Translations under genes and position numbers: made by a program | Part shown: positions 2,002-8,170 of the stretch, piece by piece | Position numbering within the stretch: the stretch's first letter is position 1 | Layout of the letters: the number at the start of each line of letters is the position of its first letter | Assembly (NCBI GenBank): GCA_946482165.1 | Contig: CAMLQS010000054.1 | Location: 1-19,591, forward strand | Reading direction: 5' to 3' | Length of the DNA stretch: 19,591 nucleotides | Source of the DNA: an uncultured Verrucomicrobiota bacterium | GTDB lineage: Bacteria; Verrucomicrobiota; Verrucomicrobiae; Opitutales; Opitutaceae | Notes under the pieces: generated by a model | What the model saw: the letters and a program-made list of their open reading frames with translations, nothing else | Told to the model about the DNA's origin: nothing | Database searches by the model: none

Positions 2002-2020
2002 TGTTATGAAGGATGAAGGC

Positions 2021-2104
2021 GGAAACCTGAGACCTGAGGAGGAATCAGCGTTTCGATCTCGGTGGTTTGGGAATTTCAGGTCTCAGGTTTCAGGCCTCAG
2101 GTCT
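2021..2104 (-). repeat. Inverted repeat between ftsA and ftsZ
   Basis: A perfect 16-bp inverted repeat fills most of the 107-nt gap: gaaacctgagacctga at 2022-2037 and its reverse complement at 2076-2091, with a 38-nt loop. The right arm continues into a further degenerate copy (caggcctcaggtctg to about 2104), ending a few bases from the ftsA stop codon. In the transcript it can fold into a stem about 20 nt upstream of the ftsZ start. The same repeat core flanks the four-helix-bundle gene upstream. No T run follows, so it is not a classical terminator. A mobile-repeat remnant, an mRNA stabiliser or an ftsZ leader control element are all possible. Confidence 0.85.
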
Positions 2105-2108
2105 GCTT

Positions 2109-3329
2109 TCACAGCCGCGCGAGGTTGTCGACGGCCTGGCGGAACTTGCCGAAGAATCCGGCGGGCTTCGCCGCCGCGGTTTCAAGTTGCTGGGTGAGGC
2201 CCTGGTGCAGGAGACCGAGCGCGGTGCTGTAGGCGGGGTGCCGCAATTTTTCGGCGACCTCGACGCGCGGGATGCCGAAACGGGCGGGAATCTCAAACAC
2301 GCGGGCGGCGGCGTCCTCGATGCCGGGCAAGGCGGTGGTGCCGCCGGTGAGCACGACGCCGGCGAGGGTCTCCGCGGGCGTGTAGATGTTGCCCAGCTTC
2401 TTGCGGACGACCTCGAAGATCTCGCGCACGCGGGCGGTGGTGATCTGTTCGATGGTCATGCGCGGGAACTTGCGGTCTCCGATGCCCATGTCGCCGTTGA
2501 GCCAGACCGCGTCGTTGCGGTCCTTGGCGGCGACGGTGGCGCGGCCGTAGAGATTTTTCATCTTGTCGGCCTGGCCCTCGGTGATGCGCAGCCCCAGCGA
2601 AAGATCGTTGGTGAGATGATTGCCCCCCACGGGAACGACGCCCGCGACGTAAGGACGGCCGTGGCGGTAGTAGGCGTAGTCCGTGGTGCCGGCCCCGATA
2701 TCGATCGCGAGCACGCCGTGCTGGCGCTCTTCGGGCGTGGTGAGGATGTTGCCGCCGGCGAGAGACGAAAGAACGAGTTCGGTGACCGGGAGGTTGAAGT
2801 TGCGGATGATATGCACGCCGTCGGCAATGCGGTTTTGCTCTCCGTGCACGTGCCAGACGCCGACCGAGAGCCGGTCGCCGCGAATGTCCTCGGGCGAGGG
2901 ATTGAGCGTGCCGTCGAGGTAAAAGGGGCGGCGCAGGAAATGAACGATGCAGCGGCCGGGCGGCAGCGCCTTCGACTTGGCGAGGCCGTAGACGCTGTCG
3001 ATATCGAGCTGGCTGACGCGCCCCTCCAACCCGCCGACATTGACGCTCGCCTCGTGATAAAAACCGTCGATGTGGCTGCCGCTCTGGGCGAGGTAAATCT
3101 GTTGCAGGCGGGCGCCGGCGCTTTGCTCGGCGGCGACCAAGGCGCGGTGGGTGGCTTCGCCGGCCGCGGGAGCGTCGACCACGACGCCCTTCACCACGCC
3201 GCGGGATGGGAACTCGCCCAAGCCGATGACGTTGAGCCGCGAGCCGGAGATCTCGCCGACGAGCGCGGTGACCTTGGAGGTGCCGATTTCGACGGCGCCG
3301 ACGATGCGTGACTTGGAGAAGGCGGACAT
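2109..3329 (-). CDS. ftsA: Cell division protein FtsA
   Basis: Actin-like ATPase that tethers FtsZ filaments to the inner membrane and recruits later divisome proteins. Length, 406 residues, is typical. Visible actin-fold motifs are phosphate 1 GAVEIGTSKV (11-20), phosphate 2 VLAIDIGAGTTDYAYY (206-221) and the adenosine loop GVVLTGGTTALPGIEDA (324-340). The 1C subdomain lies between the first two. The last 16 residues, GFFGKFRQAVDNLARL, form an amphipathic membrane-targeting helix after a short Ala/Lys/Pro linker. The start is ATG at 3327-3329; the 81-nt leader has no Shine-Dalgarno sequence, is pyrimidine-rich next to the start, and carries two copies of the ctgaaacctgag-type repeat. It lies between the inserted four-helix-bundle gene and ftsZ. 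Identity is certain. Confidence 0.98.
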   Translation of the reverse strand: MSAFSKSRIVGAVEIGTSKVTALVGEISGSRLNVIGLGEFPSRGVVKGVVVDAPAAGEATHRALVAAEQSAGARLQQIYLAQSGSHIDGFYHEASVNVGGLEGRVSQLDIDSVYGLAKSKALPPGRCIVHFLRRPFYLDGTLNPSPEDIRGDRLSVGVWHVHGEQNRIADGVHIIRNFNLPVTELVLSSLAGGNILTTPEERQHGVLAIDIGAGTTDYAYYRHGRPYVAGVVPVGGNHLTNDLSLGLRITEGQADKMKNLYGRATVAAKDRNDAVWLNGDMGIGDRKFPRMTIEQITTARVREIFEVVRKKLGNIYTPAETLAGVVLTGGTTALPGIEDAAARVFEIPARFGIPRVEVAEKLRHPAYSTALGLLHQGLTQQLETAAAKPAGFFGKFRQAVDNLARL

Positions 3330-3348
3330 GAAGAAGAGGGATGAGGTG

Positions 3349-3400
3349 CTGAAACCTGAGACCGGAGAGGAAGGATGCGTTTGGAAGACTGAGACCTGAA
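3349..3400 (-). repeat. Two repeat copies in the ftsA leader
   Basis: The gap between the four-helix-bundle gene and ftsA holds ctgaaacctgagacc (3349-3363) and ctgagacctgaa (3389-3400), in the same orientation as each other. The first is the exact reverse complement of 3804-3818 on the other side of the four-helix-bundle gene. The stretch 3351-3384 also resembles 2022-2054 in the ftsZ leader (shared arm, then gaggaa...gcgttt-ga), and both lie 20-21 nt from their start codons. Confidence 0.8.
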
Positions 3401-3410
3401 TCGAATGGAA

Positions 3411-3791
3411 CTAGGACAGGTTTTGCGTGCGTTGTTTGGTGCGCTTGGCCATGGTGACGAAGATCGAGATCAACTCGTCAGCCTCCGTCCAGATGGGCGT
3501 GGTGCGGGAGGAATCTGCTTCGCAATCCTCGTTCAAGAGCTCGAGCCAGAGTTGCGTTTCGTCCGCTTCCTGCGCGCAAAGTTCGATCTTCGCCACGAAC
3601 TCGGCGTCGCTCCTGGCCCGCGACGCTTCCCGATAGTTTGCGGCCACGGAAGTGCCGGCGCGGAGCATTTGGCGTCCAAGGATTCGGACATCTTCGCGCC
3701 GAAAATCCAGCTGCTGATACCCGCGAACGACCATCGAGGCGAACGACTTCGTTCGCGCACGCAGGGCCTGCTTCTTGTCTTCGGAATTCAT
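3411..3791 (-). CDS. Four helix bundle protein (S23 / 23S rRNA intervening-sequence family)
   Basis: A 126-residue helical protein with no signal peptide or membrane segment. The hallmark region of the S23/IVS four-helix-bundle family is clear: QMLRAGTSVAANYREASRAR (41-60), then SDAEFVAKIELCAQEADETQ and LWLELL (to 86). Relatives are encoded in intervening sequences of 23S rRNA genes and as stand-alone genes. The Avd accessory protein of diversity-generating retroelements has a related fold, but no reverse transcriptase is present here. The molecular function is not known; nucleic-acid binding is inferred. It sits between ftsQ and ftsA, where dcw clusters normally have nothing, and is bracketed by inverted repeats. 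By my count about 75% of its codons end in G or C, which looks lower than in the flanking division genes. It starts at ATG (3789-3791) without a Shine-Dalgarno sequence. The frame is intact. Confidence 0.92.
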   Translation of the reverse strand: MNSEDKKQALRARTKSFASMVVRGYQQLDFRREDVRILGRQMLRAGTSVAANYREASRARSDAEFVAKIELCAQEADETQLWLELLNEDCEADSSRTTPIWTEADELISIFVTMAKRTKQRTQNLS

Positions 3792-3796
3792 GTCCG

Positions 3797-3818
3797 GGTT
3801 TCAGGTCTCAGGTTTCAG
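3797..3818 (-). repeat. Repeat copy upstream of the four-helix-bundle gene
   Basis: The 42-nt gap between ftsQ and the four-helix-bundle gene contains two tandem overlapping copies of the ggtttcag unit joined by gtctca (positions 3797-3818). It is inverted relative to the copies at 3349-3400 and matches the right arm of the ftsA-ftsZ repeat (2074-2093) over 20 bases. Confidence 0.8.
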
Positions 3819-3833
3819 CGATTCAACCCTCAG

Positions 3834-4850
3834 CTAGATGCGGAAAAAGGTGAGCGGGGCGGGCGCTTGCGCCGGAGCAGGAGAAGCGGGGCGCGCAGGA
3901 CGGGTGGACGCGCCCGAGGCGGCGGGTTTGGACTCCTTCACTGGAGCCTCGAACGCGACCGGGACCTGGCGGCTTCCGACCGCGAGATTGATCGAACGGA
4001 CGGGAGCGGCGCCGGGCTTGGCGCGAATCTGGTCGAGAATGTAGTCCAGCCGCGCGATCTGGCGGTAAAAGTCGTCGCGTGTTCCGAAAATGATCTCCCC
4101 CACATCCTGGGTGCGCACAAGAATGACCCCGTCACGCGCGAAGCGGGCAAGCGACACGGTCTGAAAATCCTTGGCGAGCGAAGGAGCCGACGCTCGGGCG
4201 GTGCCGAGCAGATCCGAGACGGCGTCCATCCCGGGAACCGGCGAGAAGCCGAGGCCCGAGAGCTGGCGCGTGAGGCTGACGCCTCCCAGCCACGGCAGGC
4301 CCAGCAGGACGGATTCGTCGTAGCCCTCGCCGGCGAAAACGAAGCCGTCGCGCGCCACGAAAAGGTGACGCTCCACGCCGTCGGGCGTGCGGGCGCGGAC
4401 GCGAAGGACGGGGCTGCGTTCTTCCAAGGTGACGGCCAGCACGTCGGGAAAGCGGCGGGCGACGACCGCGACCTTCACCTGGCCGGACTCGAGCAGGCGG
4501 TCGCGCAGGGCGTCGATCTCCAGATCCATCAGCGGCACGCCGGGGCGGACGCCAAGGGTGCGCTCGACCCAGGCGCGATTGAGGACGCCATCTCCGCGGA
4601 CGACGATTTCGCGAAGCGGCGCGGAAGGCGCGGGCGCGGCGAGCGCGGCGGGATTGTCGTTCCAGATGCGCCACCCGAGGTATCCAAAAATCAAACACGC
4701 CGCGGCCAGGCCGACGCCGATCCAGTGGCGCAACGCGGAAAGGACCAGGCGGCGACGTCCGGTGCGGGTGCGCGGACGCGGCGCGGCCTCCGGGGCGACG
4801 GTGTCGCGCCAGGTGGGTGCGGTCTGCGGGATGATCGGGACGTGGTTCAC
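3834..4850 (-). CDS. ftsQ: Cell division protein FtsQ/DivIB
   Basis: Bitopic divisome protein that links FtsL/FtsB to the septal synthase and FtsA. The 338-residue product has a basic Pro-rich cytoplasmic tail (1-42), one membrane helix (about 43-61), then a POTRA-like domain starting near LREIVVRGDGVLNRAWVERT (79-98). This is followed by a beta domain with the typical FPDVLAVTLEERSPVLRV stretch. The last 40 residues are an Ala/Pro-rich low-complexity tail ending LTFFRI, longer than in many FtsQ proteins. FtsQ is poorly conserved, so the call rests on topology, the POTRA pattern and position between ddl and ftsA. The start is GTG (4848-4850), 9 nt after the ddl stop; no Shine-Dalgarno sequence is seen. 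Its stop is followed by a repeat and the inserted four-helix-bundle gene rather than ftsA directly. Confidence 0.88.
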   Translation of the reverse strand: MNHVPIIPQTAPTWRDTVAPEAAPRPRTRTGRRRLVLSALRHWIGVGLAAACLIFGYLGWRIWNDNPAALAAPAPSAPLREIVVRGDGVLNRAWVERTLGVRPGVPLMDLEIDALRDRLLESGQVKVAVVARRFPDVLAVTLEERSPVLRVRARTPDGVERHLFVARDGFVFAGEGYDESVLLGLPWLGGVSLTRQLSGLGFSPVPGMDAVSDLLGTARASAPSLAKDFQTVSLARFARDGVILVRTQDVGEIIFGTRDDFYRQIARLDYILDQIRAKPGAAPVRSINLAVGSRQVPVAFEAPVKESKPAASGASTRPARPASPAPAQAPAPLTFFRI

Positions 4851-5828: not shown

Positions 5829-8170
5829 CACAGAAATTCTTTCCAATCCCGGCCGTAGAGCAGGACCTCGGGTTCGAGGCGGACGCCATGGGCTTTCTCG
5901 ACCTGCGCGCGGACACGGCGGACGAGCGTGATCACATCGGCGGCGCGGGCGCGGTCGTGATTTACGATGAAATTGGCGTGGACGGGCGAGACCTCGGCGT
6001 CGCCCTCGCGGGCGCCCTTGAGGCCGGCGGAGTCGATGAGGCGGCCGGCGGAGTCGCCCGGCGGGTTTTTGAAGATGCAACCGGCCGACGGCTCGCGGGG
6101 CTGGGTCTTGCGGCGCTTGTCGCGGTAGACGTCGATCTGCCGGTTGATCTCGACGGCGGATTTGGCCGTGTCGGAGGCCGGGGGGCGAAGAACCGCGCCG
6201 AGGGCGATGGCGGAGTCGAGTTCGGCGCAGTGGCGGTAATCCACGTGCATCGCCGACTTCGGCAGCGTGCGGCGCTCGCCGGCGAGGGTGACGAGGTCGA
6301 CGCTTTCCACGACGTCGAAGATCCATCCGCCCATGGCGCCGGCATTCATGCGAAGAGAGCCTCCGACATTGCCGGGAATACCCTCAAGAAACTCGAAGCC
6401 GACGAAGCCGGCCTTGGCCGCGAGGCCGCAGAGATTTTTCAAGCGCAGGCCGGCGCCGACGCGGATGCGGCCGTCAGGCAAGGGGGCGAAACTCTCCCAG
6501 AACGGATGACGCAAACTGATGACAAGCGCGTCCACGCCCTCGTCCGGCACGAGCAGATTGGAACCGCGACCAAGTGGGAGCACGCGGAGGCCGAGGGACC
6601 GGGCGGCGCGCACGAGGCCTACGAGATCCGAGTCGTTGGCCGGCTCCGCATAGAGGCGAGCGGCGCCGCCGACGCGAAGGGTGGTCTTGTCCGCGAGCGA
6701 GATTTCGCGCTGCAGCTTGGTATCCACCGAGACGTGCGGGGTCGCCGCCGCCGCGACGCGGTCCCACCAAGCCGGCCAAGGGAAAGCGGCGAGCCAGGCG
6801 CGGGCCGAGGCATCGAGATCGCCCGCGCCGACGATGGCGACGAGATCGCCCGGGCGCAGATCGGCGGTCAGGCGGTCGTAAACGGGCGAGTGCTCCCCGG
6901 CGAGATGGACGACGGGCAGGCCGGGAGAGGCGGCGCGAAGGATCTCGACGAGATCGGCCGTCGTTCCGCCGGCGGCGGACGATTCACCCGCGCCGTAAAC
7001 GTCGAGCAGGTAGAGCGCATCGGCCATGGAAAGCGCGGCGGCGAAGCCGGCGCGGAACTGCCTGGTGCGGCTGAAACGATGAGGTTGAAAAACCACCCGC
7101 AGGCGTCCCTCCGCGGGCAAGCGGAGGCGGAGGCCGGTGAGAAGCGCGGCGATCTCCGAAGGGTGGTGCGCATAGTCCTCGATCACCGTGAAGGCGGCAC
7201 CGGAGGCGAGCACGGCCTGGCGGCGGCGCACCCCGGGATATTCGGCAAGAAGATCAGGCCGGAGATTCGCCCCGAGCAGATGCGCGGCAGCGAGGGCCGC
7301 GGTGGCGTTGAGCGCGTTGAAATCGCCGAAAGCGCGCACGCTGGCGGCGGGCAAACCGGGGAGAAACCGGCCGTCGAGCCGAAGGTCGAGCCTCGCGGGA
7401 CCGGCGGGGGCGGAAGAGACCAAAGCGTAGGAACCGCCGCGGCCGAAGGTTAGCACCCCGTCGCGCGTCGAGGCGGCGCGCGCGGAAAGTTCACAGGTGG
7501 AGTTGATCAAAACCGCGCCGGCGGTGCGGGAAAGCAGGGCGGCGAAAGTGGCCTCGAGATCGGCTTGCGTGCGGTAGTGGTCGGGGTGGTCCCAATCGAG
7601 ATTCACCACCAACGTGAGGAAGGGCGCGAATCGCCCGATGGTGCCGTCGCTCTCGTCGATCTCGGCGACCAGCAATTCGCCCGCTCCGGCCGCGGCGGGA
7701 GGAGTGGCGTCGTCGGCGAAAAGGCCTCCTCCCACGTAGCCGGGCGCGAGGCCCGCGGCGCGAAGCGCGACAACCAGCATGGCGGTCGTGGTCGTTTTTC
7801 CATGCGAACCACAGACGGCGACGAGGCGGCGATGGCGCGCCAGCTCGGCGAGAAATTCGCCGCGGCGCACGACCTGCAGTCCGCGCTTTCCGGCGACGGC
7901 CAGCGCCGGGTGCGCCGAGGGGATGGCCGAGGAAACCACAAGGAGCTCGGCGGCCTCGGGTATATGATCGGAAGACGCGAGGGAGACGCCGGCACGCTCC
8001 AGCCAGACGCGCATGACGTCCGTCGGCGCATCGTCGGCACCGCTGACGGAGAACCCCAGTTCGGCGGCGTAGATCGCGAGCGGACCAAGGCCCATGCCGC
8101 CGACTCCAAGGCAGTGGATGGCGCGGAGCGGGCGTCCGAAGAGCGAGGGTGGCGAGGGAGGAGGGCTCAT
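5828..8170 (-). CDS. murC-murB: MurC-MurB fusion: UDP-MurNAc L-alanine ligase / UDP-GlcNAc-enolpyruvate reductase
   Basis: One uninterrupted 780-residue frame encodes two precursor enzymes. Residues 1 to about 460 are MurC, with the Rossmann start CLGVGGMGLGPLA (20-32), P-loop GSHGKTTTT (121-129), LDWDHPDHY (191-199), GDFNALNATAALA and EDYAHHPSEI (331-340). Residues from about 480 are MurB, with the FAD-binding SLADKTTLRVGGAA (491-504), GRGSNLLVPDEG, GIPGNVGGSLRMNAGA (597-612), PSAGCIFKNPPG (694-705) and the final LEPEVLLYG. At the MurB proton-donor position the usual Ser is Cys698. MurB reduces the enolpyruvyl intermediate to UDP-MurNAc and MurC adds L-Ala, so the fusion joins adjacent steps. 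The ATG (8168-8170) overlaps the murG stop as ATGA. The junction around 460-485 is Ala/Trp-rich with no start-like break, so I see a true fusion rather than readthrough of two genes. Confidence 0.95.
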   Translation of the reverse strand: MSPPPSPPSLFGRPLRAIHCLGVGGMGLGPLAIYAAELGFSVSGADDAPTDVMRVWLERAGVSLASSDHIPEAAELLVVSSAIPSAHPALAVAGKRGLQVVRRGEFLAELARHRRLVAVCGSHGKTTTTAMLVVALRAAGLAPGYVGGGLFADDATPPAAAGAGELLVAEIDESDGTIGRFAPFLTLVVNLDWDHPDHYRTQADLEATFAALLSRTAGAVLINSTCELSARAASTRDGVLTFGRGGSYALVSSAPAGPARLDLRLDGRFLPGLPAASVRAFGDFNALNATAALAAAHLLGANLRPDLLAEYPGVRRRQAVLASGAAFTVIEDYAHHPSEIAALLTGLRLRLPAEGRLRVVFQPHRFSRTRQFRAGFAAALSMADALYLLDVYGAGESSAAGGTTADLVEILRAASPGLPVVHLAGEHSPVYDRLTADLRPGDLVAIVGAGDLDASARAWLAAFPWPAWWDRVAAAATPHVSVDTKLQREISLADKTTLRVGGAARLYAEPANDSDLVGLVRAARSLGLRVLPLGRGSNLLVPDEGVDALVISLRHPFWESFAPLPDGRIRVGAGLRLKNLCGLAAKAGFVGFEFLEGIPGNVGGSLRMNAGAMGGWIFDVVESVDLVTLAGERRTLPKSAMHVDYRHCAELDSAIALGAVLRPPASDTAKSAVEINRQIDVYRDKRRKTQPREPSAGCIFKNPPGDSAGRLIDSAGLKGAREGDAEVSPVHANFIVNHDRARAADVITLVRRVRAQVEKAHGVRLEPEVLLYGRDWKEFL

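Follow-up and report, generated by a model that had tools for sequence, protein, structure and literature searches.

An S23-family gene between inverted heptamer arrays at the ftsQ–ftsA junction of an Opitutaceae bacterium, and similar arrays around other S23 genes

We analysed a stretch of 19,591 nt (19.6 kb; hereafter the window) from an uncultured Verrucomicrobiota bacterium of the Opitutaceae (GenBank assembly GCA_946482165.1, contig CAMLQS010000054.1). Between ftsQ and ftsA this DNA carries one gene of the S23 (23S_rRNA_IVP) family, enclosed by two arrays of the heptamer TGA[A/G]ACC (TGARACC) that face each other head to head, and it is very probable that this arrangement is an inserted S23–heptamer unit. 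Comparison with other S23 loci suggests a widespread kind of tiny insertion unit that mostly has a private repeat and encodes no recognisable moving enzyme; this general pattern is a larger result than the insert in the window. On balance, we lean toward the view that the unit is a compact element of about 0.5 kb, made of S23 plus a heptamer hairpin, in which S23 is likely the partner of the repeat, much as in the systems formed by repetitive extragenic palindromic (REP) doublets (REPINs) and REP-associated tyrosine transposases (RAYTs), except that the transposase is missing.

The S23 element between ftsQ and ftsA

A preliminary description made from the letters alone had placed an intact S23 gene between ftsQ and ftsA inside perfect 15-bp inverted repeats. 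The gene is indeed the only one in the 504-nt spacer (3330–3833), and its product scored above the cut-offs of both PF05635 (E 3.4e-13, 50.2 bits; curated cut-off 33.8) and TIGR02436 (E 1.2e-19, 70.6 bits; cut-off 24), while the flanking genes matched POTRA_1 and TIGR01174. Its predicted structure is the four-helix bundle of the family, with a predicted local distance difference test score (pLDDT) of 96.3. The best solved match is 2rld and 2gsc is also found; Avd, the accessory protein of diversity-generating retroelements, appears further down among others with a score that is not decisive, helical bundles being compared. The protein had no match among the PADLOC defence families or the PHROGs phage families.

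The inverted repeat is exact and one base longer than first described, covering 16 bp (GCTGAAACCTGAGACC at 3348–3363 and its reverse complement at 3804–3819). It forms the core of two arrays, with three exact TGARACC units at 3797–3817, two at 3350–3363 and one at 3390, and it lies within 40-nt arms (3327–3366 and 3801–3840) that are 78% complementary. In rRNA intervening sequences, pairing arms enclose the gene. The S23 open reading frame (ORF) is likewise predicted to be enclosed by a base-paired stem, since the arms pair at the base of the RNA fold of 3330–3837 (508 nt, z −3.21); the location is between protein genes rather than in an rRNA gene. An exact inverted repeat of at least 15 within 600 nt occurred anywhere in 7 of 100 shuffles of the window, which approximately preserved dinucleotides, and the real window has such repeats at three places. 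At one of them, between ftsA and ftsZ, the same heptamers form a hairpin with no gene (RNA fold −34.9 kcal/mol, z −4.76), and locus L002 also has a TGARACC hairpin at its ftsA–ftsZ junction (7226–7314). The heptamer structure of the repeat, the ftsA–ftsZ hairpin and the generality of the pattern for S23 genes had no place in the preliminary description.

Relatives were identified through FtsA, and none of the 11 found has S23 between ftsQ and ftsA (hidden Markov model search for S23, E 1e-5). In ten of them the spacer measures 0 to about 46 nt, judged by stop and start positions among the matches listed. The closest, a Verrucomicrobiota metagenome-assembled genome (MAG) with 90% identity in FtsA (L001), has a 386-nt spacer (about 927–1312) with different inverted repeats of the CACAGAT/ATCTGCGG type and, by eye, a small ORF; several of the others are labelled Opitutaceae. 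Because S23 is absent at this junction in the relatives, the insert in the window appears recent relative to these splits, and insertion at ftsQ–ftsA is well supported by this comparison of junctions. The suggestion of a small insertion unit with no obvious transposase is thus well supported as anatomy and by comparison, and movement is what we infer from it. The alternative suggestion of a domesticated RNA-binding factor is unsupported for the window copy because relatives have no S23 here. Beside that suggestion stands the purifying selection on S23 proteins, for which omega was 0.05–0.22 in eight of 14 pairs and synonymous changes were saturated in the other six.

S23 is the sole gene assigned in the element, where no Y1 (HUH) transposase match was found, and the 13 window proteins scanned (ftsI, murE and a right-end ORF lay outside the scan) contained no recombinase, transposase or reverse-transcriptase domain. 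Rfam gave nothing in the window at gathering level.

The same repeat also occurs elsewhere. The pattern CCTGARACCTGARACC is present in 6 of 57 related genomes, and we scanned 37 sequences (35 stretches around pattern sites, the window and L002) for TGARACC arrays. Head-to-head neighbours less than 600 nt apart made up 16 pairs in 11 of these sequences, and 14 pairs have no S23 between them. Twelve pairs are spaced by 2–149 nt and two by 248 nt; the remaining two, at 393 and 409 nt, are those that contain S23, namely the window copy and that of locus L091. There are also five tail-to-tail neighbours, 195–525 nt apart. The L091 protein is 76% identical to that of the window (similarity 0.77) and has the same heptamer, whereas the flanking DNA is not homologous, so that gene and heptamer occur together at two unrelated sites. 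A further repeat-flanked copy, of the kind to be expected of an insertion unit, therefore exists in addition to the dispersed gene-less hairpins.

The surrounding genes form a minus-strand division and cell wall (dcw) cluster, with Pfam matches that fit ftsZ, ftsA, ftsQ, ddl, murC–murB, murG and ftsW, as well as a LysM protein, murD, mraY and murF; the names murE and ftsI rest solely on frame order. Coordinates are collected in Table 1.

Table 1. Features of the S23 element and its surroundings in the window.
Feature	Position	Strand	Details
S23-heptamer element	3348..3833	-	Bounded by the outer edge of the exact repeat on the FtsA side and by the base that follows the FtsQ stop
S23 / 23S_rRNA_IVP four-helix-bundle gene	3411..3791	-	126 aa; co-directional with ftsQ and ftsA
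5' arm	3797..3819	-	On the gene strand, GC followed by TGAAACC TGAGACC TGAAACC; lies between the stop of ftsQ and the start of S23
3' arm	3348..3403	+	GCTGAAACCTGAGACC at 3348-3363, degenerate units, then TGAGACCTGA at 3390-3399 (read on +)
ftsQ (flank)	3834..4850	-	POTRA_1, E 1.2e-10; stop at 3834
ftsA (flank)	2109..3329	-	TIGR01174, E 4.8e-80
Gene-less hairpin, ftsA-ftsZ	2014..2106	.	Same heptamers; arms 2014-2034 and 2072-2106

Inverted short-repeat arrays around S23 genes

For other loci, we compared the 250 nt 5' of a gene with the 250 nt 3' of it for inverted copies and counted a local alignment score of at least 28 as a pass. By this measure, 72 of 94 chromosomal Verrucomicrobiota S23 loci passed. 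When 5' flanks were paired with 3' flanks of S23 genes from other genomes, 2.1% of 3000 pairings passed, and the rate was 2.7% for 110 pairings of different S23 loci inside one genome. Other ORFs in the same loci passed in 1 of 43 cases and ParE genes in 0 of 29 (29 of 30 had enough flank). The low rate within genomes indicates that a repeat is mostly particular to one S23 locus. The set of 94 includes 69 loci from the phylum that are among the strongest S23 matches listed and not a random sample, some matches having been skipped (contig end, adjacent copy or internal stop). It leaves out L019, L036 and L037, which lie at a contig end or score below the cut-off, and L033, whose flank is short; L042 duplicates L091. 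Three loci (the window, L091 and L096) came into the set by way of the repeat or the finding itself, and 70 of 91 loci pass when they are excluded.

Among the 72 passing loci, over the covered periods of 4–14, the best period is 7 in 34, 14 in 21, 8 in 13, 6 in two and 9 in two. Examples of the heptamers are AGGAGTC, GGAGAAC, AGTTGAG, AATGACC and AGTAGCG, and the median length of the elements is about 490 bp. S23 is common and multi-copy, with matches in 100 of the 145 genomes sampled and up to 18 in one. The arrangement also extends to plasmids of other phyla, where 12 of 15 loci passed (cross pairs 5.2%; 15 of 25 S23-bearing records tested, flanks of 220 nt from the ORF). Passing loci came from Cyanobacteriota, Chloroflexota, Spirochaetota and Bacillota; those that failed were the only Bacteroidota locus (L301), one from Cyanobacteriota (L297) and one from Chloroflexota (L298).

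S23 genes tend to lie in co-directional surroundings. Taking the longest open frame on each side as the neighbour, we entered 71 loci, of which 25 had both sides called, and in 22 of these S23 shares its strand with the two neighbours. Scored singly, S23 agrees with the upstream neighbour in 35 of 37 cases and with the downstream neighbour in 33 of 37. In the controls, gene and both neighbours share a strand in 4 of 10 cases for ParE and in 7 of 9 for PDDEXK_3.

Related S23 proteins tend to have related repeats. Protein similarity was correlated with heptamer similarity (Mantel r 0.36, reached in 0 of 2000 permutations). Across genomes, 29 pairs have a protein similarity of at least 0.7. The flanks are homologous in 18 of them, and 16 of these share the heptamer at score 30; among the 11 with non-homologous flanks, the heptamer is shared in four at score 30 and in seven at score 24. 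In each similarity class below 0.5, sharing at score 30 is at most 1.1%. Separately, loci L128 (G017) and L149 (G129) have homologous flanks and related S23 genes, yet carry AGGAGTC and AGAATCC, respectively, on both arms. This difference indicates that arrays can change in concert.

Gene-less hairpins built from S23-locus arms are dispersed as well. Counts by BLAST for the L012 and L017 types were taken from the best 40 candidate stretches per genome and are lower bounds. By eye, the L012 arms recur at a minimum of 20 further places in G003 and of five in G004, and of the four genomes searched it is these two that carry the L012 S23; most of the 64 (G003) and 53 (G004) rows of that search match other repeats in the query. 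G005 yielded none, and the 11 rows from G001 all align to a different portion of the query. The AGTAGCG arms of L017 form at least 12 gene-less hairpins, seven in G009, three in G010 and two in G008, with loops of 8–54 nt (by eye). AGGAGTC arrays were found in 13 of 145 genomes, every one of which has S23 (Fisher p 0.010), and peak at 38 matches in G017, whose S23 gene (L128) carries AGGAGTC; the reversed pattern gave matches in four genomes (G060 11, G100 5, G087 1 and G169 1). AGTTGAG arrays were found in 18 genomes, 16 with S23 (p 0.059), and peak at 235 matches in G018 (S23 locus L151). For this motif the reversed pattern is an uninformative control because it is a rotation of the motif itself.

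Explanations for the association

RNase III cuts intervening sequences out of rRNA transcripts. A model that accommodates the data starts from an element in which a heptamer, mostly private, is arrayed head to head on either side of a single S23 gene; the element can form a hairpin whose loop holds the gene. Such an element would have entered ftsQ–ftsA after the lineage split from its known relatives. S23 would specifically bind the hairpin of its own repeat in the form of RNA or single-stranded DNA and, by analogy with RAYTs and their REPINs, may favour the spread or upkeep of that hairpin, with the chemistry of strand joining supplied by the host or by an enzyme outside those found here. Read-through of the hairpin, or its excision from the transcript by RNase III, may explain why insertion between co-directional genes would be tolerated. 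Whether S23 is an active partner of its repeat seems to us evenly balanced. We put forward only tentatively the broader idea of a large class of selfish heptamer hairpins whose dedicated partners, with no enzymatic activity of their own, are the stand-alone S23 proteins of various phyla; each protein would recognise its private hairpin and drive its copying into co-directional junctions by host enzymes.

Several observations weigh against this model. Its support comes from sequence comparison, and no excision, transposition or binding was seen. The window protein is not basic overall (isoelectric point 6.35), and no target-site duplication is visible by eye at the ftsQ–ftsA ends, for which no near-identical empty allele was compared. 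In the inverted-array test 22 of the 94 chromosomal loci and 3 of the 15 plasmid loci fail, and 26 of the 37 TGARACC stretches show no head-to-head partner in the scan, so that many arrays are single or too degenerate. At high similarity, it is mostly loci whose flanks are homologous (18 of 29 pairs) that produce the correlation between protein and heptamer. Repeats and genes are also found apart. G019, which looks like one contig among many draft genomes (MAGs where a title is shown), has 83 AGTTGAG-array matches and no S23 match; G008, also with no S23 match, has hairpins of the L017 type; and the S23 loci examined in G002 and G011, both rich in TGARACC arrays, carry other motifs or none. 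Finally, at two other S23 sites that we compared, the relatives that have no S23 are not empty but carry other hairpins or genes.

One of these sites bears on a different explanation, namely that S23 is a passenger. Some other enzyme would move several families of hairpins, and small genes such as S23, GxxExxY nuclease-like genes and toxin–antitoxin genes would ride in the loops or share hot spots. At the L017 site (L017 and L313–L317; types by eye), G009 has S23 with a remnant of a AAGCGCAAAGACGCG arm beside it, in G006 a GxxExxY-like gene is enclosed by AAGCGCAAAGACGCG arms, G005 has an AbrB/PIN-like pair, and G008 and G010 have other small ORFs. Such variety at one junction speaks for a passenger role. 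At the other site, the pheS–pheT junction (by eye; L240–L244), five genomes have four hairpin types, one of them with S23 in its loop: G004 has S23 in AGTAGCG arms, and the other four genomes have a hairpin with no gene, of the ACACAGAGG type in G003 and G013, of CACGAAA in G001 and of ACGGAG in G002. The passenger explanation also draws on the GxxExxY/PDDEXK_3 (PF13366) genes, 27 of 29 of which lie between inverted arrays, and on Y1 transposases, which we found in 102 of 145 genomes, including 83 of 100 with S23 and 19 of 45 others, with copy numbers that correlate with those of S23 (Spearman 0.61).

The GxxExxY genes (L202–L231; 29 of 30 with enough flank) constitute a second gene-in-hairpin family in their own right. 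Their arrays are built of longer units, for example ACCACAGAGGACACAGAGG, and 11.6% of cross pairs pass because repeats are shared between loci.

Against a passenger role, the type of repeat is specific to the gene family, heptamers for S23 and longer units for GxxExxY, and related heptamers tend to accompany related S23 proteins. In addition, 17 of the 100 S23 genomes have no Y1 match, and the RAYT-like genes that we examined lie mostly with GGGGTCAG-type REPs. We took 20 of the latter from Verrucomicrobiota, of which 19 were usable (L277–L295); ten passed the inverted-repeat test and seven of these ten contain GGGTCAG. These inverted REPs also provide the test with a positive control. Among the best 12 Y1 loci, eight had enough sequence and one (L275) passed; its long arm is no heptamer array. 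Movement by a RAYT was rejected given the GGGGTCAG-type REPs and the low heptamer periodicity at RAYT-like genes. A passenger role for S23 in general seems to us rather unlikely.

Improbable, in our judgement, is the idea that S23 inserts, at the RNA or DNA level, into the loops of hairpins that already exist, the arrays being short tandem repeats of the host and no part of the element. S23 is known from insertions in rRNA (PMC11270868, in the portion consulted), the same-strand orientation in 22 of 25 loci and the hairpin fold would suit insertion at the RNA level, and at pheS–pheT (the L022 site) relatives that have no S23 do carry hairpins. However, those hairpins differ in sequence and are not AGTAGCG arms, and loop insertion fails to predict that a heptamer is shared at unrelated sites, as it is for the window and L091, L113 and L136, L017 and L144, and L103 and L107.

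A retroelement-like mechanism, in which S23 acts as Avd does with a reverse transcriptase supplied in trans on the transcribed hairpin, is very improbable. RVT_1 is present in just 50 of 145 genomes and was not found in the S23-rich G059 (18 S23 matches), G084 (8), G087 (13) and G129 (10), on which ground reverse-transcriptase-driven movement was rejected; the 13 window proteins scanned gave no such match either. That ordinary features such as terminators or slippage microsatellites lie near S23 genes by chance is hardly credible: heptamer tandem repeats do occur in bacteria in accounts whose relevant passages leave S23 unmentioned (PMC4679880, PMC4692102), but the controls (other ORFs, ParE and cross pairs) contradict coincidence, and neither a terminator nor slippage alone can place arms on opposite sides of a gene.

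Relation to known systems

Heptamer short tandem repeats are familiar from cyanobacteria as short tandemly repeated repetitive (STRR) sequences. The S23 arrays resemble such repeats in having 7-nt tandem units that are mostly intergenic and differ from them in being paired head to head, both around S23 and in gene-less hairpins. Other examples are TAACTGA in Beggiatoaceae (PMC4679880) and GGGAATC in Xanthomonas (PMC4692102), for which the passages on the repeat mention no link to S23, and part of PMC4853749 also describes heptamer repeats. We found no report linking S23 genes to heptamer arrays in searches of the open-access literature, some of which had other aims and which largely leave out subscription papers and preprints.

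With the rRNA intervening sequences that carry S23, the window element shares the protein family and a gene enclosed by pairing arms (PMC11270868, in part). It differs in lying between protein genes of an essential operon, in having heptamer arrays and in being accompanied by dispersed gene-less hairpins. In REPIN–RAYT systems, REP doublets accompany TnpA-REP as REPINs, and a gene is flanked by an inverted, dispersed extragenic repeat that forms hairpins and tends to stay matched to it (PMC3116915, in part). Dispersed inverted pairs that form hairpins are seen here for TGARACC and for the L017 type. Matching of gene and repeat is suggested by the Mantel correlation, yet the pairs with non-homologous flanks are few (11) and G019 and G008 have arrays with no S23; moreover, the S23 element has no Y1 transposase, and its units are tandem heptamers rather than REPs. 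Miniature inverted-repeat transposable elements are likewise short non-coding copies with inverted repeats, but the S23 hairpins have no known transposase parent and target-site duplications were not seen. As for Avd, the predicted fold appears similar and a distant homology with PF05635 is stated in the relevant part of PMC10053308; the difference is that no reverse transcriptase occurs among the 13 window proteins scanned, and no search for template or variable repeats was made.

The association joins two puzzles, heptamer repeats and S23 genes, and provides a testable ligand for a family called functionally uncharacterised in the portion consulted of PMC11270868. It suggests a class of mobile elements that is invisible to gene annotation alone and that can enter essential operons, fts among them. 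If S23 proteins are dedicated partners of their hairpins, they would form a REPIN-like mobile system with no transposase, and a family known mainly from rRNA intervening sequences would gain a function.

S23 or four-helix-bundle genes have also been noted in other settings. Part of PMC8700078 reports unique four helix bundle genes in Arthrospira, and IVP appears in a figure legend on a CRISPR system (PMC10910872, in part). Among the plasmid loci, we observed S23 within defence-like clusters (L298, L299, L304, L305, L309 and L311) that include cas2/cas1, hsdS/hsdR, helicase/methylase and DUF1156/Swt1-HEPN genes. S23 lies between DUF1156 and Swt1-HEPN genes in L304 and L305, between hsdS and hsdR in L311, and between cas2 and cas1, on the opposite strand, in L309.
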